This document shows positions 2,373 to 45,105 of a stretch of DNA of 64,000 bases, piece by piece (positions within the stretch are counted from its first letter, which is position 1; every line of letters starts with the position of its first letter). Source of the stretch: Streptomyces sp. L2 (GTDB taxonomy: Bacteria > Actinomycetota > Actinomycetes > Streptomycetales > Streptomycetaceae); the NCBI RefSeq assembly GCF_004124325.1, contig NZ_QBDT01000001.1, positions 5,022,001-5,086,000 on the forward strand, read 5' to 3'. A program made the position numbers and the translations under genes. The notes under the pieces are model-generated. The model saw nothing but the letters and a program-made list of their open reading frames with translations, did no database searches and was not told the origin of the DNA.

Positions 2373-2588
2373 ATGTCCGAGCGTTCGGCTCTCACCCGAC
2401 TCACGGGCAACGGTAACGGCAACGGAGAGTGCGGAGAGAAGGACTGCCCGAACGTGTACCGCACGGGGACCGGTTCGTTCGTTGTGCAGGGCGACGTGTC
2501 CGACGCCTTCACCCCGCCCGCAGGCGAAGGGATCGTGGAAATCCCCGAGTCGGTCCTCAGGGAGGCTTTCCGTGCACTTGGATGGTGA
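2373..2588 (+). CDS. Small XRE-locus protein, 71 aa
   Basis: The product begins MSERSALTRLTGNGNGN, carries a CGEKDCPNVYRT segment with two closely spaced cysteines, and ends in a hydrophilic IPESVLREAF helix. Similar short proteins are widespread next to Scr1-type XRE regulators in Streptomyces and have no assigned biochemical role. It opens a three-gene unit: the DUF6879 gene starts 17 bases before this gene ends, which implies translational coupling. The GNGNGN stretch gives a short GGYAAC-type repeat in the DNA. Confidence 0.7.
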   Translation: MSERSALTRLTGNGNGNGECGEKDCPNVYRTGTGSFVVQGDVSDAFTPPAGEGIVEIPESVLREAFRALGW

Positions 2589-3084
2589 CGTGTGGAACGA
2601 ATGTTTCGACTCCATGGAGCGAGAGGCCTGGCGGCTCGAAACACTGCCCGCCTACACGATGCCTCAGGAAGCGGAGAGACTGAAGCGATTTCTCGCGGGG
2701 GAAAAGTCGCCTGACGACTACAACTCGGTCTGGATGGACGAGGTGCGACAGTGGACCTCGGTTGGAAAGAGGGTGGGCAGGGTTCATGTCGTGACCCGTC
2801 CCCTCTCCGATTACCTTCGGTTCGAGTTCGAGTACTACTACCGCCACCACGTGAAGGCAGGCGAGGACATTCGCATTCTCGACCTCACTGACCGCGAGAA
2901 CCCGGGGCTGCCCGATCAGGACTTCTGGATTTTCGACGAGTCCAAGGTGGTCCTGATGAACTATCGGGCGGATGGCAGTCAGATGAACCGCGAGTTGTAT
3001 GAGGGAAACCCCGATCCGTACCGGCAGTGGAAGCAGATCGCCATGACGGAAGCCGTCCCGTTCCTGGAGTACGTGAGCGGGTGA
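2572..3084 (+). CDS. DUF6879 family protein
   Basis: The 170-residue product matches the DUF6879 family of Actinobacteria. It has an N-terminal helix-rich part (FDSMEREAWRLET) and a conserved core reading GRVHVVTRPLSDYLRFEFEY, followed by DFWIFDESKVVLMNY. I selected the GTG at 2572 because GGGAGG sits six bases upstream. It overlaps the preceding gene by 17 bases and the following XRE gene by GTGA, so the three are almost certainly one transcript. DUF6879 proteins are recurrent partners of XRE/DUF5753 regulators in Streptomyces. Their biochemical role is unknown; a toxin-antitoxin-like or signalling role has been suggested only from gene neighbourhood. Confidence 0.85.
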   Translation: MHLDGDVWNECFDSMEREAWRLETLPAYTMPQEAERLKRFLAGEKSPDDYNSVWMDEVRQWTSVGKRVGRVHVVTRPLSDYLRFEFEYYYRHHVKAGEDIRILDLTDRENPGLPDQDFWIFDESKVVLMNYRADGSQMNRELYEGNPDPYRQWKQIAMTEAVPFLEYVSG

Positions 3085-3914
3085 CGATCGACCCACAGCG
3101 GCAGGGGCGGCCGGGACAGGAACTGGCAGCCCTGCTGAAAGATCTACGCAAGCGAGCCGGCCTCACCGGGGACCGGCTCGCTCGACGTTGCAACATGTCC
3201 CAGTCGAAGATCAGCCGGATCGAGAACGGAAAGGCACAACCCACACTTGTCGATCTGGAGCGGATCCTCCGGGCGGTCGTCGCTCCACCGGAGGTCATCG
3301 AGGAGGTCGCTGCCCTCGCGAGGCTGGCCAACACCGAATGGCAGGATCTTCGGTCGCTTCGCCGCAAGGGCCTGGAGAAGAAGCAGAGTGAGCTGGCCGC
3401 TCTGGAATCCTCATGTACCGAGTTCCGGTTCTTCTTGCTGTCCATGATTACCGGGTTGCTGTCGACTCCTGAGTACATCCGGGCAAGCCTTGCCAACTCG
3501 CCGACTGATGTGAGCAAGACGATCACCAGGAAGCTGGAGCGACAAGAGGTTCTTTACGACACGAGGAAGCGGTTCACCTTCATTCTCACTGAACAGGCGG
3601 TGAGGTGGCCGCTGTTGCCTCCGGCTGCAATGGCGTTGCAGATCGACCGGCTGGCCTCCCTCACTCGCATGACCAACGTGAAGCTCGGAGTTATCCCGAT
3701 GGCGGGATACAAGCCGATGGCTCCGATGGACACTTTCACCATCTATGACAACATTCTGACCACCGTGGAGAACACCACAGGTGTCGTCGTTCTGAGAGAC
3801 CCGCGCGACATCTCAATGCACCTGGAACTCTTTTCCACACTGAGAAGTTATGCGGTGTTCGAGGATGAAGCCAGAGAACTGTTGGCGGAGTGGTCCGCTG
3901 CCTTTCGCGCATGA
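3081..3914 (+). CDS. XRE regulator with Scr1/DUF5753 domain
   Basis: This 277-residue protein has an N-terminal Cro/C1-type helix-turn-helix (about residues 15-65, core CNMSQSKISRIENGKAQPT) and a C-terminal DUF5753 (Scr1_TA_antitoxin) domain, visible as LLSTPEYIRASLA, ILTEQAVRW and VVVLRDPRDI. Such proteins are pleiotropic regulators in Streptomyces (the AbaA/WhiJ-like group). The GTG start overlaps the DUF6879 stop. The inverted repeat at 2268-2285 is a plausible autoregulatory site. The gene immediately precedes the peptide/JmjC cassette on the same strand, with a 142-base gap, so it might also control that unit. Confidence 0.9.
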   Translation: MTIDPQRQGRPGQELAALLKDLRKRAGLTGDRLARRCNMSQSKISRIENGKAQPTLVDLERILRAVVAPPEVIEEVAALARLANTEWQDLRSLRRKGLEKKQSELAALESSCTEFRFFLLSMITGLLSTPEYIRASLANSPTDVSKTITRKLERQEVLYDTRKRFTFILTEQAVRWPLLPPAAMALQIDRLASLTRMTNVKLGVIPMAGYKPMAPMDTFTIYDNILTTVENTTGVVVLRDPRDISMHLELFSTLRSYAVFEDEARELLAEWSAAFRA

Positions 3915-4056
3915 TCTTTAGTCCATGACAAGCATAAACCAGACAAACGCCGACTCTCGGGTCAATGATTCTCTCCATGGCGGCGACAGCAGGACCCAGA
4001 AAGCTGCTTCCCGCCCAGATCGCAGTGGGAGTTCCCGAGAAGAGAGAGGCAACTCG

Positions 4057-4194
4057 ATGATGGAAGAACGCACCGGTGCGACGGCCCCCCAGGAGGGCGG
4101 CCTGATCGTCGCGAAGCGCAGGATCGTAGCCGCGCGGACGCGTGCCGAGCAGGAGTCAGACGTCAGCAGCGGCCGTTCCGACGGCAACGACTGA
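4057..4194 (+). CDS. Putative modified-peptide precursor, 45 aa
   Basis: The short frame starts at ATGATG behind GAGAGG and ends 14 bases before the JmjC gene. The product begins MMEERTGATAPQEGG, has a basic middle (LIVAKRRIVAARTRAEQE) and an acidic/serine-rich tail (SDVSSGRSDGND). There is no signal peptide and no cysteine. A Gly-Gly pair at residues 14-15 could separate leader from core, but no dedicated peptidase or exporter is visible. Size, position at the head of a coupled operon of tailoring-type enzymes, and low complexity argue for a substrate peptide. Alternatively it is a small accessory protein. The frame is open back to 3925 without a better start. Confidence 0.55.
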   Translation: MMEERTGATAPQEGGLIVAKRRIVAARTRAEQESDVSSGRSDGND

Positions 4195-4208
4195 CGGGAG
4201 CGCCCGCG

Positions 4209-5396
4209 ATGCTTGACGCAGCCTCGTGGGCGGGGCGCCTGGGCGGGGACAGGTTCCTCGCCCAGACGTACCACCGCTCCTACGCGCACTTTGCCGGTGC
4301 CGCCGACGCGGCAGCCCTGTTCTCCTGGGACGACCTGAACCGGATCATCGCCACGCAGCGCCTGGAACCGCCTCGACTGCGTCTGTCGGCCGACGGAGAG
4401 ATGGTCCCCCTTCAGCGTTACGCGGTGCCGACCACGAACCGGCGTGCGGTCACCTGGTCCCGTATTCAGCCGACCGAACTCCACGCCCAACTCAAGGCCG
4501 GAGCATCTCTCGTTCTTGACGCGGTGGAAAAGATCCATCCAGCCGTGAGCGTGGCGGCCGTGGGACTTGAACGGTTTCTCGGAACCTCGGTGCAGGCCAA
4601 CGTGTACGCGTCGTGGACCGAGCGAGAGGGCTTCGGCATGCATTGGGACGACCACGACGTGATCGTGGTTCAGGTGCACGGTTCCAAGCGCTGGCGTCTG
4701 TACGGCACGACTCGTGAGGCTCCCACATTCCGGGATGTCGAATCGCCCGAGCAGCCTGAGGGAGACCCGATGGCCGACCTCGTTCTAGCTCCCGGTGATG
4801 TGCTCTACTTGCCACGAGGCTGGTGGCACGCGGTCACCGCCGATCAAGGAACCGAATCGCTTCACCTGACCTTCGGGCTGGTCCCGCAAACCGGGGCCGA
4901 TCTACTGCTCTGGGCGGTGGATCAACTCCGGTCGTCCCTGACGCTGCGGAAGGACGTTCCGCGCTTCGGCTCGCTCACGGAACGGTCGGTCTTCCTTGAT
5001 GCGCTCCGCGGTGAGGTGGCCGGGAAGCTGGAGGACCCTCATCTGGTCGAGAGGTGGGCCGAATCGACCGACACCACCGACCTCGGCCATGCGATTCCCT
5101 CCCTCCCGTACGTGGACGGGGTCCCCGCGCGGAGGGAGATCACGGTCAGACTCACTGCTCCGCGGGGCCGCCTCTCGGCGAACAGTGCTCAGGGCACGGT
5201 GACCTTCTCGGCAGCAGGTACGGCGTGGGACCTGTCCGAGTCGGCGGCACCCCTGCTGGGTGCCCTGCTGACGAATCAGCCGGCCACCCTGGGAGAGCTC
5301 GCGGACTCGGCCGGACTGGAATTGAAGGACGTGGCCGAGTTGGTCACCGCCCTGATCGAGGGGCAGGCGGTCGCCGTCGTGGGGACGGCGCTGTGA
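4209..5396 (+). CDS. JmjC/cupin Fe(II)/2-oxoglutarate hydroxylase with PqqD-like C-terminus
   Basis: The 395-residue enzyme resembles the cupin_4 (RoxA/MINA-type) oxygenases that hydroxylate protein side chains using Fe(II), O2 and 2-oxoglutarate. The metal triad is visible as H145 and D147 in GMHWDDHD and H207 in LPRGWWHAV; K160 and R161 in HGSKRWRLYG are of the type that contacts the co-substrate. The last 80 or so residues (about 315-395) form a separate region, with a segment PLLGALLTNQPATLGELA that reads like the winged-helix/PqqD fold of RiPP recognition elements. That resemblance is by eye. It overlaps the next gene by GTGA. The enzyme probably modifies the 45-aa peptide or another protein target. 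Confidence 0.85.
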   Translation: MLDAASWAGRLGGDRFLAQTYHRSYAHFAGAADAAALFSWDDLNRIIATQRLEPPRLRLSADGEMVPLQRYAVPTTNRRAVTWSRIQPTELHAQLKAGASLVLDAVEKIHPAVSVAAVGLERFLGTSVQANVYASWTEREGFGMHWDDHDVIVVQVHGSKRWRLYGTTREAPTFRDVESPEQPEGDPMADLVLAPGDVLYLPRGWWHAVTADQGTESLHLTFGLVPQTGADLLLWAVDQLRSSLTLRKDVPRFGSLTERSVFLDALRGEVAGKLEDPHLVERWAESTDTTDLGHAIPSLPYVDGVPARREITVRLTAPRGRLSANSAQGTVTFSAAGTAWDLSESAAPLLGALLTNQPATLGELADSAGLELKDVAELVTALIEGQAVAVVGTAL

Positions 5397-6298
5397 CCGC
5401 CTCGTTGTCCCTGGGGACCTACCGTGTGCGTGCCGTCAGCGTGGCGGCGCGCACGGCCCTGTCCGCCGACAGTCCCTGGCTGGACACGGCGCCCAACTAC
5501 GCGCGTGGGCGGGCTCATGAGGTGCTGCGCCCGGTCCTGGAGGAGTACCCGACTGCCCGGGTCGCCACGAAGACCGGGTTCTTTACGGGAGAAGAGGGCC
5601 GTGCTGCCCGGGCCGCCGGCATGCTCAACCACGAGGTCGTGTCCGGTGGCCACAGCCTTGAGCCGGGCTTCGTCCGTTGGCAGACGGAGCGTTCGCTGGC
5701 CACGCTCGGTCGCGCCGAACTGGTTTTCGTGCACAACCCCGAGCAGCAGATGCACGGCCGTGACCGAGCCGCCCTCCATCGACGTACGCGGGAAGCCTTT
5801 GCCGTGCTGGAAGAATTCGCCCGAGAGGACCGGATCGATGGGTACGGCGTCGCCACATGGTCCGGCCTGCGTTCCGGGGCGTTCGACGTGGCCGACTTGA
5901 TCGCTCTGGCCAGGGAAGCGGCGGGTTCCGACGAACATCACTTCACTGGGTTGCAGATGCCGGTGAGCCTGGTCAGGGCCGAGCCCATCACACAGGCGCT
6001 CAAAGGCTGCGGGCCGCTGGTGCAGGCGAAGGACGCAGGACTGATCACGTTCGGCTCAGCACCTCTGCACGGTGGTGAGCTGCTGGAGGCCATGACGCCT
6101 GAACTGGTCGACTTCATCCGTCCTGGTCTGTCGGCCGCGGCCGCATGCGTCCTGGCCGCGGGATCATGTCCCGCCCTTGACGTCGTTCTTGCCTCCGCGA
6201 GCAGCCGCGAGCACTGGGACGATCTGGTCAATGCCCTGGCCGAGCCTTTGGCGGCCAGTGATCTCAGGAAGGTGACGGATGGACTCGCCTTTGAATGA
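5393..6298 (+). CDS. Aldo/keto reductase-like protein
   Basis: The 301-residue product has the aldo/keto reductase signature. The catalytic tetrad is readable as D31 and Y36 in WLDTAPNYARG, K60 in VATKTGFF and H114 in ELVFVHNPEQQ, at the usual family spacing. Expected chemistry is NAD(P)H-dependent reduction of a carbonyl, or the reverse oxidation. The barrel is complete in length. The GTG start lies inside the stop of the JmjC gene, and its own end overlaps the kinase-like gene by 20 bases, so the three enzymes should be made together. A hydroxylase followed by an oxidoreductase suggests stepwise oxidation of one substrate. Confidence 0.85.
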   Translation: MTASLSLGTYRVRAVSVAARTALSADSPWLDTAPNYARGRAHEVLRPVLEEYPTARVATKTGFFTGEEGRAARAAGMLNHEVVSGGHSLEPGFVRWQTERSLATLGRAELVFVHNPEQQMHGRDRAALHRRTREAFAVLEEFAREDRIDGYGVATWSGLRSGAFDVADLIALAREAAGSDEHHFTGLQMPVSLVRAEPITQALKGCGPLVQAKDAGLITFGSAPLHGGELLEAMTPELVDFIRPGLSAAAACVLAAGSCPALDVVLASASSREHWDDLVNALAEPLAASDLRKVTDGLAFE

Positions 6299-7133
6299 CG
6301 ACGTGCGAACCCTGATGGAGAGAGCCCACTACCGAGCGGCCAATGCCCTGGGCCTTTCGTGCACCGGTCCACCTGTGTGGGGCTTCCTCGGAGTCACTCT
6401 CGGACGGCGCGCGGGGAACCGGTGGCTGAGAGTGAGCCGTACGGTCAGAGCCAACGCAGGCAGGAGGCCGGGGGAAGGCACTGTCGGAGCGGCTGATCTG
6501 GTGCCCGAGGGTGTTCCGCGCCCCCGTCTGCACGCTGTCCACGACTGGACCGAAGGGGAGTGGGCGTTCGAGGCCGAAGTCCTTGATTACGTGGCCCAGT
6601 CCGTCGTGTCCCCGACCCGCGCCGACCTTGCTCACGATCCGCAGTTGCCGGACGGCTGGTGGGCTGACCTGCGCCAAGCCCTTGACCTGCTCGCTCAAGC
6701 GGAGGGCGTTAAGACCACGGTCCGGGACAGCTGGATCGAGCGTGCCTTCCCTCAGTTCCTCGGCATCCCGGCTCCGGCCGCAGTCGAACGTGTCACTGGC
6801 CATGGCGACCTGCATTGGGGCAATCTCACGACCGCGCCGCTGACCCTGCTGGACTGGGAGCGATGGGGCATGGTCCCGTTCGGCTACGATGCGGGCCTCC
6901 TGCATGCGAACAGCCTGCTCGTCCCGGACGCCGCAGCCCGCATCCGTGCCGAGTTCGAGGAGACCCTCGACACACCCGCCGGACGAATCGGGGAACTGTC
7001 CGCCCTTGCGGAGATGCTCCAAGCCGTAGCCCGTGGCTGGTACCCCGAGCTGGCCCCGTGCCTCGTCCACCGCGCGGAGGCTCTGACCGGCGTCCACCCA
7101 CCCCTTCCGGCGTACTCCGAAGTCACCGCGTGA
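6279..7133 (+). CDS. APH-family (aminoglycoside phosphotransferase-like) kinase
   Basis: The 284-residue protein carries the phosphotransferase catalytic loop GHGDLHWGN (H175, D177, N182) and the metal-binding LDWERWG (D192), as in APH and choline/homoserine kinase families. The N-terminal lobe is short and poorly conserved: I see no clear glycine loop, though the segment around residues 34-55 may supply the ATP-binding lysine or arginine. The start at 6279 gives a 20-base overlap with the reductase gene. In this context it may phosphorylate a peptide hydroxyl or a small molecule rather than act in antibiotic resistance. It is the last gene before a strong hairpin. Confidence 0.8.
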   Translation: MDSPLNDDVRTLMERAHYRAANALGLSCTGPPVWGFLGVTLGRRAGNRWLRVSRTVRANAGRRPGEGTVGAADLVPEGVPRPRLHAVHDWTEGEWAFEAEVLDYVAQSVVSPTRADLAHDPQLPDGWWADLRQALDLLAQAEGVKTTVRDSWIERAFPQFLGIPAPAAVERVTGHGDLHWGNLTTAPLTLLDWERWGMVPFGYDAGLLHANSLLVPDAAARIRAEFEETLDTPAGRIGELSALAEMLQAVARGWYPELAPCLVHRAEALTGVHPPLPAYSEVTA

Positions 7134-7181: not shown

Positions 7182-7227
7182 GCTCAGCCTGCCCCGGTCA
7201 GGGCCGCCGGCTGGGGGCAGGCTGAGC
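7182..7227 (+). terminator. Terminator-like hairpin after the peptide/JmjC operon
   Basis: Perfect 14-base arms (GCTCAGCCTGCCCC at 7182-7195 and its complement at 7214-7227) enclose an 18-base loop, 48 bases after the kinase stop codon. There is no T-tract, which is common for Streptomyces terminators. Confidence 0.65.
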
Positions 7228-11938: not shown

Positions 11939-13291
11939 TCAACCGCGAAGATATTCGTATATCGATGCGGCGATAGCCTTGCCGAGGGGGATGGGGACCG
12001 CGTTTCCGATCTGTGTGGCGATCTCTGTCTTCGACCCGCACCAGCGGAAGTCCAGCGGGAATCCCTGGATCCGGGCTGCCTCGTAGTGTGTGATGGGGCG
12101 GGCCTCAGTCGGATGCAGGTAACGCCCCTTTTCCGGCTTGAAGAATTCGGTGCGGATGGTGACTGACGGATGCCCCTTTCTGAGTCGTCCCATCACGTCA
12201 CCCGTGCCCGTATTGTGGCGGTCCCAACTCTTGGTAGATAGGTACTCGACAGGTGTACGCACGCCCGCGGGGTTGTCGGTGTCGAAGACGTGCACGTCCC
12301 CGAACTCGTCCAACGTGTACCACTTGTCACGCAGATCTTTCCTGTTACCGCCCGGAGGAATCGCGAGGTAGCGAGCTCTCGATAGGGGCTCGGGGTTACG
12401 TCCGAAGTGTAGATCCGGCGTGGTGAAGATTCCTGGAAGCACAGAGTTCACTTCCGGGATGAATTCCTTCCCGTCGGGAAGTTCGGTTCCTCGGATCGTG
12501 CGACTCTTCGACTCGTTGAAGATGCTGTCGACCGCCTGCCAGTACGACATTCCCGTCTCCAACCCGTCAAACGGTCGGTTACCTGTGGGGGCAGGGTTTC
12601 GAGGCCGGCGAAGGTGGGTCTTCGCTGGGTACGCCAGCATTCGGTCGTTGGAGACGTCGCGGCGGACACCCATGACGATGGCCCGACGTCGAGCCTGAGC
12701 CGCACCGTAATCGGCCGAGTTGAGCAGGTACCGCTTGTTCCTTTCGGTGTCGGTGTCCGAAGGCTCGTGGCCGGGAGGGTCGACCAGCCGGTATTCTGCC
12801 AGCTGCCCACCTTTATCGACCTGGCTCAGCAGGTTATGGAACTCACCCGACTTGAGAAAGCGATCGACGTTCTCAATGACGAACACCTTGGGACGAATAG
12901 CGGCGACGATTCTGACGTACTCTTCCCAGAGGCGGTTGCGCTCGCTGCCCGTCTTGTTGCGGTTCAGGGCCGAGAAACCCTGGCAGGGTGGGCCTCCTAC
13001 GACCACGTCCGCGTGAAGTGCTTCCGGGGTCGGTCGCCAGGCTTCGATGTCACCGACGTGCACCCGAGCCGCCGGGATCTTCTCGTTGGTCCGAAGGTCG
13101 CCGAAGTTGACCGCGTACGTAGCAGCCGCGGCGACGTTGTGCTCGACGGCCGCGATGCTGTGGAAGACGGGGCCGTCGGTGCCCGTCCCGGAAGGGCGAA
13201 ACTCGTGGAACCCCTGGGTGAATCCGCCGCAGCCGCTGAACAGGTCAACGACAGTGATCGGATGAGGAGCAACGGGACGGGGTTTGGGCAT
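11939..13291 (-). CDS. DNA (cytosine-5) methyltransferase
   Basis: The 450-residue enzyme has the standard C5-methyltransferase motifs: I (VVDLFSGCGGFTQGF), IV with catalytic C103 (GGPPCQGFSALN), VI (VIENVDRF), VIII (AQARRRAIVMGVRRD) and X (QIGNAVPIPLGKAIA). It transfers a methyl group from S-adenosylmethionine to cytosine in a specific site; the target-recognition region is roughly residues 220-370. It is the last gene of the defence operon, nine bases after the cysteine-less homologue, and is the only methyltransferase of the pair expected to be active. Its product should protect host DNA from the nucleases encoded upstream. Confidence 0.95.
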   Translation of the reverse strand: MPKPRPVAPHPITVVDLFSGCGGFTQGFHEFRPSGTGTDGPVFHSIAAVEHNVAAAATYAVNFGDLRTNEKIPAARVHVGDIEAWRPTPEALHADVVVGGPPCQGFSALNRNKTGSERNRLWEEYVRIVAAIRPKVFVIENVDRFLKSGEFHNLLSQVDKGGQLAEYRLVDPPGHEPSDTDTERNKRYLLNSADYGAAQARRRAIVMGVRRDVSNDRMLAYPAKTHLRRPRNPAPTGNRPFDGLETGMSYWQAVDSIFNESKSRTIRGTELPDGKEFIPEVNSVLPGIFTTPDLHFGRNPEPLSRARYLAIPPGGNRKDLRDKWYTLDEFGDVHVFDTDNPAGVRTPVEYLSTKSWDRHNTGTGDVMGRLRKGHPSVTIRTEFFKPEKGRYLHPTEARPITHYEAARIQGFPLDFRWCGSKTEIATQIGNAVPIPLGKAIAASIYEYLRG

Positions 13292-13300
13292 GGTGCGATC

Positions 13301-15127
13301 TTAGCCTCGGAGCGCGGTTGCGATGGCCAGGCCGACGGCAGTGGCCAGCGGTGGTGGCATGGCATGGCCGACTTGACGATACCTGGACGTCTTGCCACCC
13401 GAGAACCTCCACGTAGTGGGGAAGGCCTGGATCAGAGCCGCTTGTTCGACGGTCAGCCTGGGGTCCTCGTCGACGGGGAAGTCCGGCCCCGGCGGGCTGT
13501 CGCCGAGGCTGGTGCCGTTGACCCCGAGTGCGGCCCAGGCCCTCTTGCTCCCCGTGGGCCCGAGGTCGGCTCCGCCGCGCCGGTCCGAGCCACCGACAAG
13601 CGCGGGAGCGAGCCGATCGGCCCTCTCGATCCAACGGGGGGCGCCCGGCCAGCCGTCCGCGAGCATGGAGGGCCCGAGCACCTGCCCCACGGTGGGAGCC
13701 GGCGATCCGCTCGGCTCGGGCCACGAGAACCGGGAGAAATAGGGTTCCCGGAGTGCTACCAGAAATCCACTCTTTCGGTTCTGGGGCACGCTGAAGTCTC
13801 CGGCATTGAGGACCTTCCAAGTCGAGCGCAGGCCAACCTGACCCAGTTCCCTTTCTATCCAGGCGCGATCGGCTTGAAATTCAGTGCCTGCTACGAGATC
13901 GGGAACGTTCTCGAACAAGACTGCCTTCGGCTTGATTTCACATGCCAAGGTCACTGCCGCACGCAGAACTCGACGTTCATCGGTGTCCTCCGTACGACCG
14001 ACCGTCGCCAGAGATTTCACGCGTGGCAAGCCACCGCTGACGAGATCGACACCCGACACATCGGGACGCAGGTTCGGTCGGAACTGGACCACGTCCATAC
14101 AGATGACGTCCCACCCCGGACGATTGAGGTCGATTGTGAAACAGGCATCGGCCTTGCTGTCGATGAGCACCACCGGGTCGAAACCGGCTCGTTCGAGTCC
14201 CAGGGCCTGAGCTCCCGCGCCGGCGCAGATCTCCAGAGAGCTGAAACGCCCGGTGTGGGTGCCCGCTGGTGGAGCGCTTGCATTTGGCTGGCTCTGCTCT
14301 GTGGAGACAGGAGAAGGGGCCCTGACGGGCCTCGGCTCTGCGGGCACCTTCGAGGCGGCTTCCGGCGGTGACGAGCGGAGGCGCTGAGCGTCCACGCATT
14401 CTTGGGCGACCGAGCGCAACTCCTCGTCCAGCGCCCGCTCCTCGATACCGTCGAACAGAACGAAAGGCGCCAGGCGAAGAAGTCGTTTGAGGAAATCGCG
14501 AAGGGTGTCGCGTTCATGCAGACCGGCGAGATCCAGGTCCTTCCAGACACGCAGAATCGCGCGGACGAGGTGGGGACTCCCGCCGAGTGCGGCGCGGCGA
14601 GCATAGATCTGGTCGAACGCGGCCTCGCCAAGAATCTCGAGAGCTGCGTACGGTTCTGAATCGTCGGGCGAACGAACGAGCTGCGCACGCCACCACAACC
14701 GGCCGAAGACGTGACGGGTGAGGTCGGTCCCGAGAACGCGATCCCCGGGTGGCTGCGGGTAGCGCCAGAACGCCACGTCGGGGAGGAGAACCAGTGCGAG
14801 GAAGGCCCACACGTCCCGGGACGCGGCTTCTGCGGGCACCATGCCCATCTCGGCGTGCAGCAGGGCGGCCAACCGTAGATCGAACTCCGCGTTGCGCCCT
14901 CGGTCGGAGTCGTCGGGGAACCCGGCCTGCTTTGCCAGGTCCAGCACGCCTTCCCGCAGCTCGCGGAGCTGAGCAGCGGCGATACGGTCACCACCGGTGG
15001 CCACGTAGACCGCGGAGTCATGGCTGAGGGCGACGCGGCGAGACAGTTCACCGATCGGGAGCCGTCTGTACTCCTCGAAGAGCGGCTTGGCCTGCTCCGC
15101 GAGCAGGCGAGGATAGAGGAAGCTCAT
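13301..15127 (-). CDS. DUF6339 domain fused to a C5-methyltransferase homologue lacking the catalytic cysteine
   Basis: The 608-residue protein starts at an ATG overlapping the previous stop (TGATG). Residues 1 to about 250 look like DUF6339 (MSFLYPRLLAEQAKPLFEEY). A proline/serine linker follows, then a methyltransferase fold from about 295: motif I LEICAGAGAQALGLERAG, motif VI LFENVPDL, motif VIII QNRKSGFLVAL and motif X GHAMPPPLATAVGLA. Motif IV reads SGGLPRVKS, with R369 where the family has the nucleophilic Cys of PPCQ or VPCP. I rechecked the codons and the frame is intact. It may be a non-catalytic specificity or regulatory partner of the downstream enzyme. Confidence 0.85.
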   Translation of the reverse strand: MSFLYPRLLAEQAKPLFEEYRRLPIGELSRRVALSHDSAVYVATGGDRIAAAQLRELREGVLDLAKQAGFPDDSDRGRNAEFDLRLAALLHAEMGMVPAEAASRDVWAFLALVLLPDVAFWRYPQPPGDRVLGTDLTRHVFGRLWWRAQLVRSPDDSEPYAALEILGEAAFDQIYARRAALGGSPHLVRAILRVWKDLDLAGLHERDTLRDFLKRLLRLAPFVLFDGIEERALDEELRSVAQECVDAQRLRSSPPEAASKVPAEPRPVRAPSPVSTEQSQPNASAPPAGTHTGRFSSLEICAGAGAQALGLERAGFDPVVLIDSKADACFTIDLNRPGWDVICMDVVQFRPNLRPDVSGVDLVSGGLPRVKSLATVGRTEDTDERRVLRAAVTLACEIKPKAVLFENVPDLVAGTEFQADRAWIERELGQVGLRSTWKVLNAGDFSVPQNRKSGFLVALREPYFSRFSWPEPSGSPAPTVGQVLGPSMLADGWPGAPRWIERADRLAPALVGGSDRRGGADLGPTGSKRAWAALGVNGTSLGDSPPGPDFPVDEDPRLTVEQAALIQAFPTTWRFSGGKTSRYRQVGHAMPPPLATAVGLAIATALRG

Positions 15128-16023
15128 CACGGAACCTCGAAGATCTTTACAGCCGCTTGCAGGTCGGATGCGAACAAGGCGGGCGATTGCCTGTGGCGAA
15201 GGCGTACGTCGGTGATCGACTGTCCCGGAAAGAGTTGGTCGAACAGACTGAGCAGAGTCGCTCCCAGGGAGCCGTCCGGGAAGTCGGCGTCCTCGACGAA
15301 GTCGTCGTGTGTCAGGGCATGCTCGATCATGGTTCGGGCGGCGTCCGCGTAGACGGCGGACAGCACCACGCGATCGATGGGCCGGGGCCTTGCCGCGTTT
15401 TGCAGGGCGGTGGCGGTGACGGTGTTCTGCTCGTTGACGAGGAGAAGCAGCGCGCCCATCGTGGCGTGTTCGAGACCTCCGCTGATCTGAAGATGCCATG
15501 CGGCGTTCTCGGGGAACGACGTCCGCGCGAAGTCGATCACCGCCATCGGGAACTGGGGGGCATCGCCCTGAAGGCGTAGCTCCACTCGGTCACTCCACAG
15601 GATGGAACCTGCGCGCCGTGGAGACGAAGGCCGAGCATTGCTCCTCCGCTCGGCGAGAACCAGTGCGGTGTCCAGGAGGAGCAGACCCCCGAGGCCGGTG
15701 CCGCGGAGCAGGATGTCGAACTCCGCCGTGTCGTCACCGCCCGCGGCGAGACGCACGTGCTGCGCGGGGCCGCTCAGGTTGGACCCGGTGGCGGTCCACA
15801 CCGTAGAGAGCAGGAGCGGGGCATCCGCCGGAAGGCCGGACTGTCGGCGAACCCTCTCCACGTCGATGCGCACCGTTCTGCGCAGCCGCAGGTCCATTTG
15901 GTAGTCCCAGTCCGGCAACGCCTCCGGGAGAGCTACCTCGCCTTCCTCGACGACCAGACACCACGGCTCGGCTACGACGACGTCGTCCGTGGGGACACGA
16001 TAGGGAAGGACGCGCCGAGTCAC
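15127..16023 (-). CDS. Unknown protein of the GHKL/Z1 defence operon, 298 aa
   Basis: I do not recognise the family. The GTG start overlaps the ATPase stop (GTGA), and the gene ends one base into the next start, so it is firmly inside the operon. The protein is acidic and beta-rich in its first half (VVVAEPWCLVVEEGEVALPE, LLSTVWTATGSNLSG) and helical toward the end (IDRVVLSAVYADAARTMIEH, LGATLLSLFDQLFPG). There is no nuclease, helicase or membrane signature. The conserved slot between the ATPase and the methyltransferase suggests a bridging or effector-control subunit. Confidence 0.75.
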   Translation of the reverse strand: MTRRVLPYRVPTDDVVVAEPWCLVVEEGEVALPEALPDWDYQMDLRLRRTVRIDVERVRRQSGLPADAPLLLSTVWTATGSNLSGPAQHVRLAAGGDDTAEFDILLRGTGLGGLLLLDTALVLAERRSNARPSSPRRAGSILWSDRVELRLQGDAPQFPMAVIDFARTSFPENAAWHLQISGGLEHATMGALLLLVNEQNTVTATALQNAARPRPIDRVVLSAVYADAARTMIEHALTHDDFVEDADFPDGSLGATLLSLFDQLFPGQSITDVRLRHRQSPALFASDLQAAVKIFEVP

Positions 16024-35907: not shown

Positions 35908-35914
35908 GTCATCG

Positions 35915-35988
35915 TGCGCCGCCAGGGACTCGAACCCCGGACCCGCTGATTAAGAGTCAGCTGCTCTAACCAACTGAGCTAGCGGCGC
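35915..35988 (-). tRNA. tRNA-Lys (anticodon CTT)
   Basis: The minus strand folds into a full cloverleaf: acceptor GCGCCGC/GCGGCGC, D-loop CAGTTGGTTAGAG, anticodon arm GCTGA-CTCTTAA-TCAGC with CTT, T-arm with GGTTCGAGTCC, and discriminator A. CCA is not encoded. An identical copy lies at 45032-45105. Confidence 0.97.
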
Positions 35989-43404: not shown

Positions 43405-45066
43405 ATGGACTCCAAGGCGCGCACGGTCGCCGAGCTGGTCGCCGCCCGGTGGGACGACCACCGTCCGCGGTTGTGGTGCGAGGAGCGGGTGCTCAGCGGG
43501 CACGAGGTGGCCGCCGGTGCCGCCGCCCGGGCCGCGCTGCTCGGCGACCTGCTGCCCGCCGGTGCCGTACCGCACCTCGGGGTGCTCCTCGACAACACCG
43601 AGGAGTTCCCGCTGTGGCTGGGCGCCGCCGCGCTCGCCGGGGCCGCCGTCGCCGGGATCAACCCGACCCGGCGCGGTGCCGAGCTGGCGCGGGACATCCT
43701 GCACACCGAGTGCGCCCTGCTGGTCACCGAGCGGGCCCACCTGTCGCTGCTGGACGGACTGGAGCTGCCCGGCGTGCGGCTGCTCGTCACGGACACGCCC
43801 GGGTACGGCGAGCTGCTCGCGCCGTACGCCGGTGCCGTGCCCGACCCGGGGCGGGCCGCGCCCCGCGACCGGCTGCTGCTCTACTTCACCTCCGGGTCCA
43901 CCGGCGCGCCCAAGGCCGCGATCTGCACCCAGGGCCGGCTCGCCGCCGCCGGGTACGCGCTGGCCGGGCAGTTCGGGGTGCGGCCCGACGACGTGCACTA
44001 CGTCTGCATGCCGATGTTCCACGGCAACGCGGTGATCGCGGACTGGGCGCCGGCGCTGGCCGCCGGGGCCGGGGTGGCGCTGCGGCGGCGGTTCTCGGCC
44101 TCCGGGTTCCTCGCGGATGTCCGCGGGTACGGGGCGACGTACTTCACCTACGTGGGGCGGGCCGTCCAGTACATCCTGGCCACCGAGGAGCGCGACGACG
44201 ACCGGGACAATCCGCTCCGGGTCGGTTTCGGCACCGAGGCGGGCGCGGTGGACGCGGCGGCCTTCGAGCGGCGGTTCGGGGTGCGGCTGGTGGAGGGCTA
44301 CGGCTCCTCCGAGGGCGGGGCGGCCGTGCAGTGGTCGCCGGGCACCCCGGCCGGGGCCGTGGGGCGGGCGGCGCCCGGTCTCGTCGTACTCGACCAGGAG
44401 ACCCGCGCCGAGTGCCCGCGCGCCGTCTTCGACCGGGCGGGCCGGTTGCTGAACGGGGACGAGGCGATAGGGGAGCTGGTCAATCGGGGGCCGAACCCCT
44501 TCGAGGGGTACTGGCGCAACCCGGAGGCGGAGCGGGAGCGGCGGCGCGACGACGGGTACTGGACGGGCGACCTGTTCTACCGGGACCCCGACGGCTACCT
44601 CTACTTCGCCGGCCGCACCGACGACCGGATCCGGGTCGACGGCGAGAACCTGGCCGCCGCGATGATCGAGAACATCCTCGCCCGGTACGACGGTGCCGAC
44701 GCGGTCGCCGTCTACGCGGTGCCGGACCCGGTGACCGGGGACCAGGTGATGGCGACGATCGCCGGGAGGTTCGAGCCGGCGGCCTTCGCGGAGTTCCTGG
44801 GCGCACAGCCGGACCTCGGGACGAAGATGGCGCCCCGGTTCGTGCGGGTGGTCGAGCGGATGCCGGTCACGGCGACGAACAAGATCCAGCGGGGGCGGCT
44901 GCGGAGGGAGGGGGTGCGGTGCGGGGATCCGGTGTGGTGGTGTCCGCCGGAGGAGGGGGTGTATCGGGTGCTGGGGGTGGAGGACGTCGAAGGGCCCCTC
45001 GTCCCGGGGGATGAGGGGCCCTTCTGTGCTGTGCGCCGCCAGGGACTCGAACCCCGGACCCGCTGA
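43405..45066 (+). CDS. Acyl-CoA synthetase (FadD17-like), C-terminus running into tRNA-Lys
   Basis: The 553-residue adenylate-forming enzyme has the ATP loop LYFTSGSTGAPKAAI, the aromatic motif VEGYGSSEGG, the hinge DGYLYFAGRTDDRIRVDGEN and the catalytic lysine in TATNKIQRGR. It activates fatty or related acids to acyl-CoA via acyl-AMP. After the normal family end, around CGDPVWWC, the frame has no stop: it reads through the tRNA terminator hairpin and into the antisense of tRNA-Lys, ending CAVRRQGLEPRTR with TGA at 45064-45066. GTG 43396 is an alternative start. Confidence 0.88.
   Translation: MDSKARTVAELVAARWDDHRPRLWCEERVLSGHEVAAGAAARAALLGDLLPAGAVPHLGVLLDNTEEFPLWLGAAALAGAAVAGINPTRRGAELARDILHTECALLVTERAHLSLLDGLELPGVRLLVTDTPGYGELLAPYAGAVPDPGRAAPRDRLLLYFTSGSTGAPKAAICTQGRLAAAGYALAGQFGVRPDDVHYVCMPMFHGNAVIADWAPALAAGAGVALRRRFSASGFLADVRGYGATYFTYVGRAVQYILATEERDDDRDNPLRVGFGTEAGAVDAAAFERRFGVRLVEGYGSSEGGAAVQWSPGTPAGAVGRAAPGLVVLDQETRAECPRAVFDRAGRLLNGDEAIGELVNRGPNPFEGYWRNPEAERERRRDDGYWTGDLFYRDPDGYLYFAGRTDDRIRVDGENLAAAMIENILARYDGADAVAVYAVPDPVTGDQVMATIAGRFEPAAFAEFLGAQPDLGTKMAPRFVRVVERMPVTATNKIQRGRLRREGVRCGDPVWWCPPEEGVYRVLGVEDVEGPLVPGDEGPFCAVRRQGLEPRTR
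44990..45023 (-). terminator. Terminator of the second tRNA-Lys, inside the acyl-CoA synthetase frame
   Basis: AAGGGCCCCTC (44990-45000) and GAGGGGCCCTT (45013-45023) form a perfect 11-base stem, starting nine bases past the tRNA 3' end on the minus strand. On the plus strand the same bases are codons of the synthetase. Confidence 0.75.
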
Positions 45067-45105
45067 TTAAGAGTCAGCTGCTCTAACCAACTGAGCTAGC
45101 GGCGC
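45032..45105 (-). tRNA. tRNA-Lys (anticodon CTT), second copy
   Basis: The 74 bases are identical to the gene at 35915-35988, including discriminator A and anticodon CTT. Flanking sequences differ immediately outside the mature tRNA, so only the gene itself is duplicated. Confidence 0.97.

Follow-up and report, generated by a model that had tools for sequence, protein, structure and literature searches.

A four-gene cassette of Streptomyces sp. L2 with a short precursor-like peptide, a JmjC hydroxylase, an aldo/keto reductase and an APH-fold kinase: very probably a RiPP family

The window analysed here is a 64,000-nucleotide (nt) stretch from the 8.07 Mb genome of Streptomyces sp. L2. Near its start lies a cassette of four genes, in which a 45-codon peptide gene is followed by genes for a JmjC-type hydroxylase (JmjC), an aldo/keto reductase (AKR) and a protein with the fold of the aminoglycoside phosphotransferases (APH). 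The nearest named relatives of the JmjC are from Streptomyces. The cassette is real, conserved and widespread in actinomycetes, and its family is very probably one of ribosomally synthesized and post-translationally modified peptides (RiPPs). The features of the cassette are as follows.

4042..4049, + strand: ribosome-site-like GAGAGAGG, 7 nt ahead of the ATG at 4057 (sequence)
4057..4194, + strand: 45-codon precursor-like peptide gene, starting at ATG 4057 or 4060 (sequence and conservation)
4209..5396, + strand: JmjC_2 2-oxoglutarate (2OG)/Fe(II) hydroxylase, ribosomal-oxygenase-like, 395 aa (Pfam PF08007, 106.7 bits)
5121..5396, + strand: C-terminal winged helix of JmjC, residues 305–395, with a fold like that of a RiPP recognition element (RRE) (predicted structure)
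5393..6298, + strand: AKR family protein with GTG start (Pfam PF00248, 42.0 bits)
6279..7133, + strand: APH-fold kinase-like protein (Pfam PF01636, 20.6 bits, below the cut-off of 23.2)
7182..7227, + strand: strong hairpin 3' of APH, possible terminator (−45.5 kcal/mol, z −2.14)

The peptide gene and JmjC are separated by 14 nt, JmjC and AKR overlap by 4 nt, and AKR and APH by 20 nt. These distances, the coordinates and the ribosome site agree with the original prediction, which had been made from the letters of this DNA alone. The same prediction let the operon end at a strong hairpin. The hairpin is there. As judged with 200 shuffles each, the 81-nt piece was equalled in stability by 7 shuffles and a 127-nt piece by 19 (z −1.40). 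Because a terminator scan did not list it, "strong hairpin" is a fair label and "terminator" only a possible one.

The family was surveyed with JmjC alone as the query, in 295 genomes of the genus and in a collection of named genomes (44 loci). The JmjC alignment was also searched against 394 genomes of the class, and the surroundings were fetched for a selection of the matches. After identical JmjC DNA was collapsed, 182 distinct loci were left. The cassette-type set contains 149 of them, whose JmjC covers 90% or more of one of six cassette JmjCs with an identity of 45% or more; half of these six query clades (D, E and the peptidase type) were picked after their loci had been inspected. The other 33 loci are 25 with less than 45% identity to the six queries, 24 of them without AKR and APH and one (L136) with both, and eight in which the match covers under 90% of JmjC: L077 (contig end), L078 (degenerate, the peptide fused into a shortened JmjC), L079 (intron), L131, L137, L219, L225 and L226. 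In L092 and L187 the peptide pattern was matched by Gly/Ala/Asp repeats alone, and these two were not counted as relatives. All survey figures are loci and not independent events, because many loci are closely related; one tight clade of the JmjC tree holds 51 of them.

Upstream of JmjC, a small gene of one architecture was found at 148 of the 149 loci by pattern and at L122 by eye, so that a short encoded precursor is conserved beside modifying enzymes, as in RiPP clusters. The peptide stop lies at most 30 nt from the JmjC start in 84 of the 148 loci (all 70 of type A, 7 of type D, 6 of type B and 1 of 15 of type C), and the gap is 31–184 nt in the remaining 64. Outside the peptidase subfamily (128 loci), AKR was present at 122 loci, APH at 119, both at 116 and neither at 3, and APH accompanied all 69 A-type loci having the peptide gene and AKR. 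In most loci of the B/C/E-type group APH is inverted and points towards AKR; in L095, L113 and L132 it is co-directional. As APH occurs on either strand, the association of the cassette survives rearrangement. The actinomycete families that have the cassette number at least three (f1, f17 and f18). A JmjC match of at least 47% identity (partial matches included) was found in 38 of the 295 genomes of the genus, which makes the cassette a fairly common trait there, and one whose peptide is unannotated.

A midpoint-rooted tree of 175 locus proteins and three other JmjC_2 proteins of the same genome has several weak nodes. The cassette JmjCs did not form one exclusive clade in it; two AKR/APH-bearing groups were seen, with JmjCs from other contexts beside them. 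Cassette JmjCs may therefore have gained their partners on more than one occasion.

The window peptide has the leader GGLIVAKRRIVAARTRAEQE and the core SDVSSGRSDGND, the boundary being assumed. In the window's clade the peptides are GLLVAKRKIVAARTRAEQE-SDVSSGRSDGND, with the core variants SDNTGGKSDMNDT, SDGGSTGRTDGND, SDGGGTGKGDGND and SDGGSTGVSDTND, and most of them end in ND or NDT. Another actinomycete family with the same enzymes has the peptide VAVEEI...RSR..QP-SDGGGTGRSDTNDG. The second large group has LLVAVEELTAVHDRYDSLR-SDNQGSSGDAPWPGGDGNLHDSE, LLIAVEELATAHDRSESER-SDITSSQNSAGDDGDNRDLNLPKE and DLLIGVESLIRVQDRFTAAAAE-SDSTGTSAGDDGENRDGLNLPQE, and also the shortest cores, SDSDGSDG and ADPDGSDG. 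What the peptides have in common is a hydrophobic leader ahead of a core rich in Asp, Ser, Thr and Gly, and this architecture is found in clades whose JmjCs are only 27–30% identical. The only residues that all cores share are Asp, Ser/Thr and Gly; some cores do without Arg, Lys, His, Asn or aromatic residues, and 147 of the 148 pattern-found peptides have no Cys within the last 24 residues. The leader motif is constant in position and the cores vary among clades, which is how RiPP precursors usually behave.

Selection on the peptide was analysed in 34 distinct peptide genes of the window's tight clade. Mean pairwise differences in codons 16–45 were 0.053, 0.026 and 0.181 for the three codon positions, mostly at third positions, and the first 15 codons drift (0.132, 0.136 and 0.152, respectively). 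The dN/dS was about 0.26 over 551 pairs. The peptide is thus under purifying selection in this clade, where the core is nearly invariant, and a chance open reading frame (ORF) is ruled out by conservation and selection. In a protein database search the window peptide had 26 relatives other than itself, the named ones being labelled hypothetical or uncharacterized. NCBIfam showed no family at E ≤ 1 for the peptide, JmjC or AKR.

All catalytic residues had been said to be present, and they are also conserved across the family. The Fe ligands H145, D147 and H207 of JmjC are intact in 148 of 148 fully alignable proteins (of 149), and the AKR tetrad D31, Y36, K60 and H114 is present in 122 of 122. 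H175, D177 and D192 of APH were found in 99 of 99 aligned proteins and N182 in 98 of 99; 20 of the 119 APHs, cut by locus ends or incomplete, were left out of the alignment. The Pfam score of the window APH is barely under the cut-off, yet its H/D/N/D residues are intact. For APH, NCBIfam gave only weak kinase matches, and sequence searches of the PDB yielded no chain for AKR at E ≤ 0.01 or for APH at E ≤ 1.

JmjC is nearest to the ribosomal oxygenases NO66, MINA and YcfD, both by sequence and by model. Whole-protein fold, C-terminal winged helix and Fe-ligand motif are as in YcfD, NO66 and MINA53; these enzymes hydroxylate ribosomal proteins (from the names of solved entries), whereas the cassette JmjC is linked with the genes of a peptide, an AKR and an APH. 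The isolated tail (residues 305–395) was confidently predicted as a winged helix of three strands and three helices, the fold expected of an RRE. Its best structural matches were the tails of MINA53 and NO66, and it resembled the RRE domains of TigE, PqqD, TbiB1, MccB and McbBCD less well. The tail had been called PqqD-like, which suits the predicted fold; the name finds no echo in the Pfam scan, where the tail had no PqqD match at E ≤ 1. Unlike PqqD and other stand-alone RREs, it is fused behind JmjC. Leader charge correlated with the charge of the tail at rho −0.24 and with that of the catalytic part at rho −0.53, and charge complementarity of leader and tail was dropped as evidence of RRE binding because the catalytic part correlates more. 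In L079:2883-8475 (Streptomyces roseoverticillatus NRRL B-3500) and in L025, a group II intron (RF00029, 59 bits) splits JmjC after about residue 150; it carries an ORF that looks by eye like a reverse transcriptase.

The original prediction took the peptide for a substrate and named three findings that would speak against it, namely homologous operons without the small gene, a peptide that is not conserved while the enzymes are, and a tail unlike PqqD or an RRE. No operon without the small gene was seen among the 149 nearly full-length cassette-type loci, the peptide is conserved down to JmjCs with 27–30% identity to that of the window, and the predicted tail matches PqqD and RRE structures, though ribosomal-oxygenase tails match better. 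Since none of the three came true, the 45-aa peptide as the presumed substrate is well supported by genomics, through co-conservation and the small gene at every cassette-type locus.

We consider it likely that the cassette is a minimal RiPP operon, in which JmjC hydroxylates (most likely Asp), APH phosphorylates and AKR carries out carbonyl/hydroxyl redox chemistry. The 45-aa product would be a precursor with a variable N-terminus, a hydrophobic and probably helical leader, GLIVAKRRIVAARTRA, and the Asp/Ser/Gly/Asn core. JmjC would bind the leader, the most likely site being the C-terminal winged helix with its RRE-like fold, and would hydroxylate a core side chain, most likely the Asp of an S/T-D-G unit. 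The APH-fold protein would phosphorylate Ser/Thr or the newly made hydroxyl, and AKR would use NAD(P) to interconvert a carbonyl and a hydroxyl of the modified core. Genes outside the cassette would have to remove the leader and export the product; the sister subfamily described below has its own prolyl-oligopeptidase. The role of the peptide as substrate, the leader/core boundary, target residue, reaction order and product given here are those that we infer from the genes.

JmjC-type hydroxylases act on Asp, Asn, His, Arg and Lys. If JmjC does the same chemistry throughout the family, Asp is the best guess, because SDSDGSDG and ADPDGSDG leave only Ser, Asp and Gly and JmjC hydroxylases are known for Asp. 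Hydroxylation of Arg, Lys, Orn or His as the common reaction is unlikely, as these residues are missing from both of these cores and from the GVSD variant of clade A. Many other cores contain Arg, Lys or His, and such hydroxylation is possible in single clades. APH may phosphorylate Ser/Thr or a new hydroxyl, because the APH-family kinase CaoK acts on Ser/Thr of a RiPP precursor (PMC9486802). The kinases of class V lanthipeptides and thioamitides (CaoK, LxmK and TvaC; PMC9486802) are of the APH family and act on a RiPP precursor, as proposed here. They pair with a HopA1-like lyase to dehydrate Ser/Thr. The search for HopA1 covered the L2 genome, where the two matches lie about 1.6 and 2.1 Mb away, and the cassette core has no Cys. 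Elimination after phosphorylation is not predicted, because the window has no HopA1 match, and lanthipeptide-like dehydration was rejected on this ground and for want of Cys in the core.

Biphenomycin offers a comparison for the JmjC chemistry. Its JmjC-type 2OG/Fe hydroxylase BipG acts, like the proposed cassette enzyme, on a RiPP precursor, where it hydroxylates ornithine (PMC12707348; BipG/BpmG also in PMC12257519). Biphenomycin differs by its F-R/Orn-F cores and by its company of an MNIO, a B12-dependent radical SAM enzyme, an HExxH hydroxylase and a TldD-type protease, while cores of the cassette family may lack Arg and Lys. Both texts mention neither "aldo" nor "phosphotransferase", and the two systems are compared here by their descriptions. 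The one MNIO match (PF05114) of the L2 genome lies outside the window, and no F-R-F occurs among the listed cores. Bregman et al. (2025) reported fusions of JmjC (PF08007) with an RRE in fish and algal proteins, and they say that bacterial homologues, of about 30% identity, sit in RiPP-like contexts (PMC12710340); "aldo" and "kinase" are absent from their text. The decRiPPter paper (PMC7794033) contains no "JmjC", "cupin" or "aldo" and uses "phosphotransferase" four times, where it speaks of a lanthipeptide cluster. The RRE-Finder paper (PMC7470986) is without all of the words JmjC, cupin, aldo, phosphotransferase, hydroxylase and Jumonji. A recognisable description of the peptide/JmjC/AKR/APH cassette was not found in the literature, which is weak evidence of absence since most subscription journals were outside the coverage; on what was found, the JmjC–winged helix with AKR and APH kinase would be an enzyme combination without RiPP precedent. 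A paper by Xia et al. from 2025, which by its title treats macrocyclisation by a 2OG-dioxygenase in RiPPs, might concern a relative. PMC11450843 came up only through the name Streptomyces jumonjinensis and is unrelated.

Several points limit the minimal RiPP operon as drawn above. The shape of the tail is no proof of leader binding, because the winged helix is inherited ribosomal-oxygenase architecture; some winged helices unrelated to RiPPs match it about as well as RREs do; and AKR and APH may act otherwise. The tail could be a structural element alone, with some other surface recognising the leader, or none. This would agree with the MINA53 and NO66 tails as best matches, with the lack of PqqD in the Pfam scan and with the unconvincing leader charge test, and we take it as a serious if rather unlikely possibility. 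It is unlikely that only JmjC, perhaps with AKR, modifies the peptide and that APH is a self-protection kinase which phosphorylates the mature product, as aminoglycoside phosphotransferases do with drugs. APH is the most loosely attached of the enzymes, being inverted in most loci of clades B, C and E, absent from nine E-type loci and not found in 21 peptidase-type loci; on the other hand the window APH overlaps AKR, the A-type loci with peptide and AKR genes have APH without exception, and APH-family kinases acting on RiPP precursors are established (PMC9486802).

The near relationship of JmjC to ribosomal oxygenases would also suit a small protein that is a partner or regulator of JmjC, with JmjC itself modifying a ribosomal protein or some other component of the cell, as YcfD, NO66 and MINA do. 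The core is almost unchanging in the window's clade, and no peptidase or transporter was recognised among the ten window proteins near the cassette that were scanned with Pfam. We hold this to be very improbable, as cores vary among clades while the leader stays put, short D/S/G-rich tails would fit substrates better than folded partners, and AKR and APH are not known to take part in ribosome oxygenation. Lowest in probability is a pearlin-like role, in which the peptide serves as scaffold for the assembly of a small molecule and then lets it go, so that the final product is an amino-acid derivative. The C-terminal ND/NDT of most peptides in the window's clade and the missing transporter would be in keeping with it, but no amino-acid-adding enzyme was recognised among the scanned window neighbours, and the C-termini vary among clades.

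A RiPP reading makes of the one operon a family that has a precursor motif and three or more partner sets. In nine loci, L175–L177, L180, L210 and L213–L216, the cores are of the SDSDGSDG or ADPDGSDG type and APH was not found; L177 and L180, the two that were inspected, have a convergent Suc_Fer-like gene. In the 21 loci of the sister subfamily (L184–L186 and L190–L207), a gene like S9 prolyl oligopeptidases lies upstream of the peptide–JmjC pair (tblastn; Pfam on L185), AKR and APH were not found, and the peptide end is of the ...EVTSRDITAGGDSDGTDSSSDFI type; L185 also has an ABC transporter gene nearby. L076, L223 and L224 have the peptide, JmjC and APH, AKR was not found, and their cores are (S/P)DGGGTGKGDGND where listed. 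In L085, L100 and L104, JmjC stands near a small peptide, with the end ...FAKTHNRAGVPDF(T/S)QMFGDSAK seen in L085 and L100. The neighbours in L100 are an arginase-family and a radical SAM protein, and radical SAM look-alikes were seen by eye in L085 and L104; this system perhaps converts Arg to Orn before hydroxylation.

We put forward tentatively, with somewhat less than even confidence, an uncharted RiPP superclass built on a JmjC of the ribosomal-oxygenase type. Its winged helix would be a true leader-binding RRE, its reaction Asp beta-hydroxylation in S/T-D-G cores, and its partners lineage-specific: AKR with APH kinase, AKR with a nearby Suc_Fer-like protein, or an S9 peptidase, in several actinomycete families. 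If this is true, the winged helices of YcfD, NO66 and MINA and the RREs would be versions of one peptide-handling module, and ribosome oxygenation and RiPP biosynthesis would become linked. The family would offer a simple way to learn if the winged helices of ribosomal oxygenases take up peptides like RREs, and it would supply candidate Asp hydroxylases and peptide kinases.

Three further genes, to which the original prediction did not refer, lie upstream of the cassette.

2373..2588, + strand: small ORF MSERSALTRL..., upstream accessory gene (similar ORF in relatives)
2575..3084, + strand: DUF6879 protein, upstream accessory gene (Pfam PF21806, 175.5 bits)
3027..3914, + strand: XRE/DUF5753 regulator (Pfam HTH_31 and DUF5753)

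The DUF5753 regulator is inconstant and stands beside some relatives only; the XRE/DUF5753 protein is possibly a regulator of the cassette, not a constant part of it. A defence system was rejected, as PADLOC on four cassette and regulator proteins matched only the helix-turn-helix part of the XRE protein. Matched by eye, an ORF similar to the DUF6879 gene was found in 8 of 45 loci and one resembling the small ORF in 7 of 45. In 20 of 45 loci, a small ORF with one hydrophobic, membrane-helix-like stretch lies between the XRE and peptide genes (e.g. L079:2647-2877); the 142-nt gap at this place in the window is too short for it.

Of the 43 named loci that were scanned, 15 carry a tRNA-Leu(GAG) gene downstream; L079 has two copies, which flank an 8.6-kb stretch that contains the cassette. 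Among 45 loci labelled by eye, nine have a gene resembling a resolvase and eight one resembling an integrase. In part of its range, the cassette may thus be carried about on islands. The only tRNA genes of the window are two for tRNA-Lys(CTT), at 35914–35988 and 45031–45105 (− strand), 9 kb apart and more than 28 kb from the cassette, and no integrase was recognised by eye among the ORFs of at least 200 aa between them.

The ten window proteins scanned with Pfam near the cassette belong to the beta-lactamase, glyoxalase, XRE/DUF5753 (a second one), HATPase, Lsr2-type and DUF6879 families, with two DNA cytosine methylases and two proteins without a match; no peptidase or transporter family was among them. 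The two C-5 cytosine DNA methylase genes adjoin each other at 11939–15499 on the − strand (PF00145, 165 and 117.8 bits).

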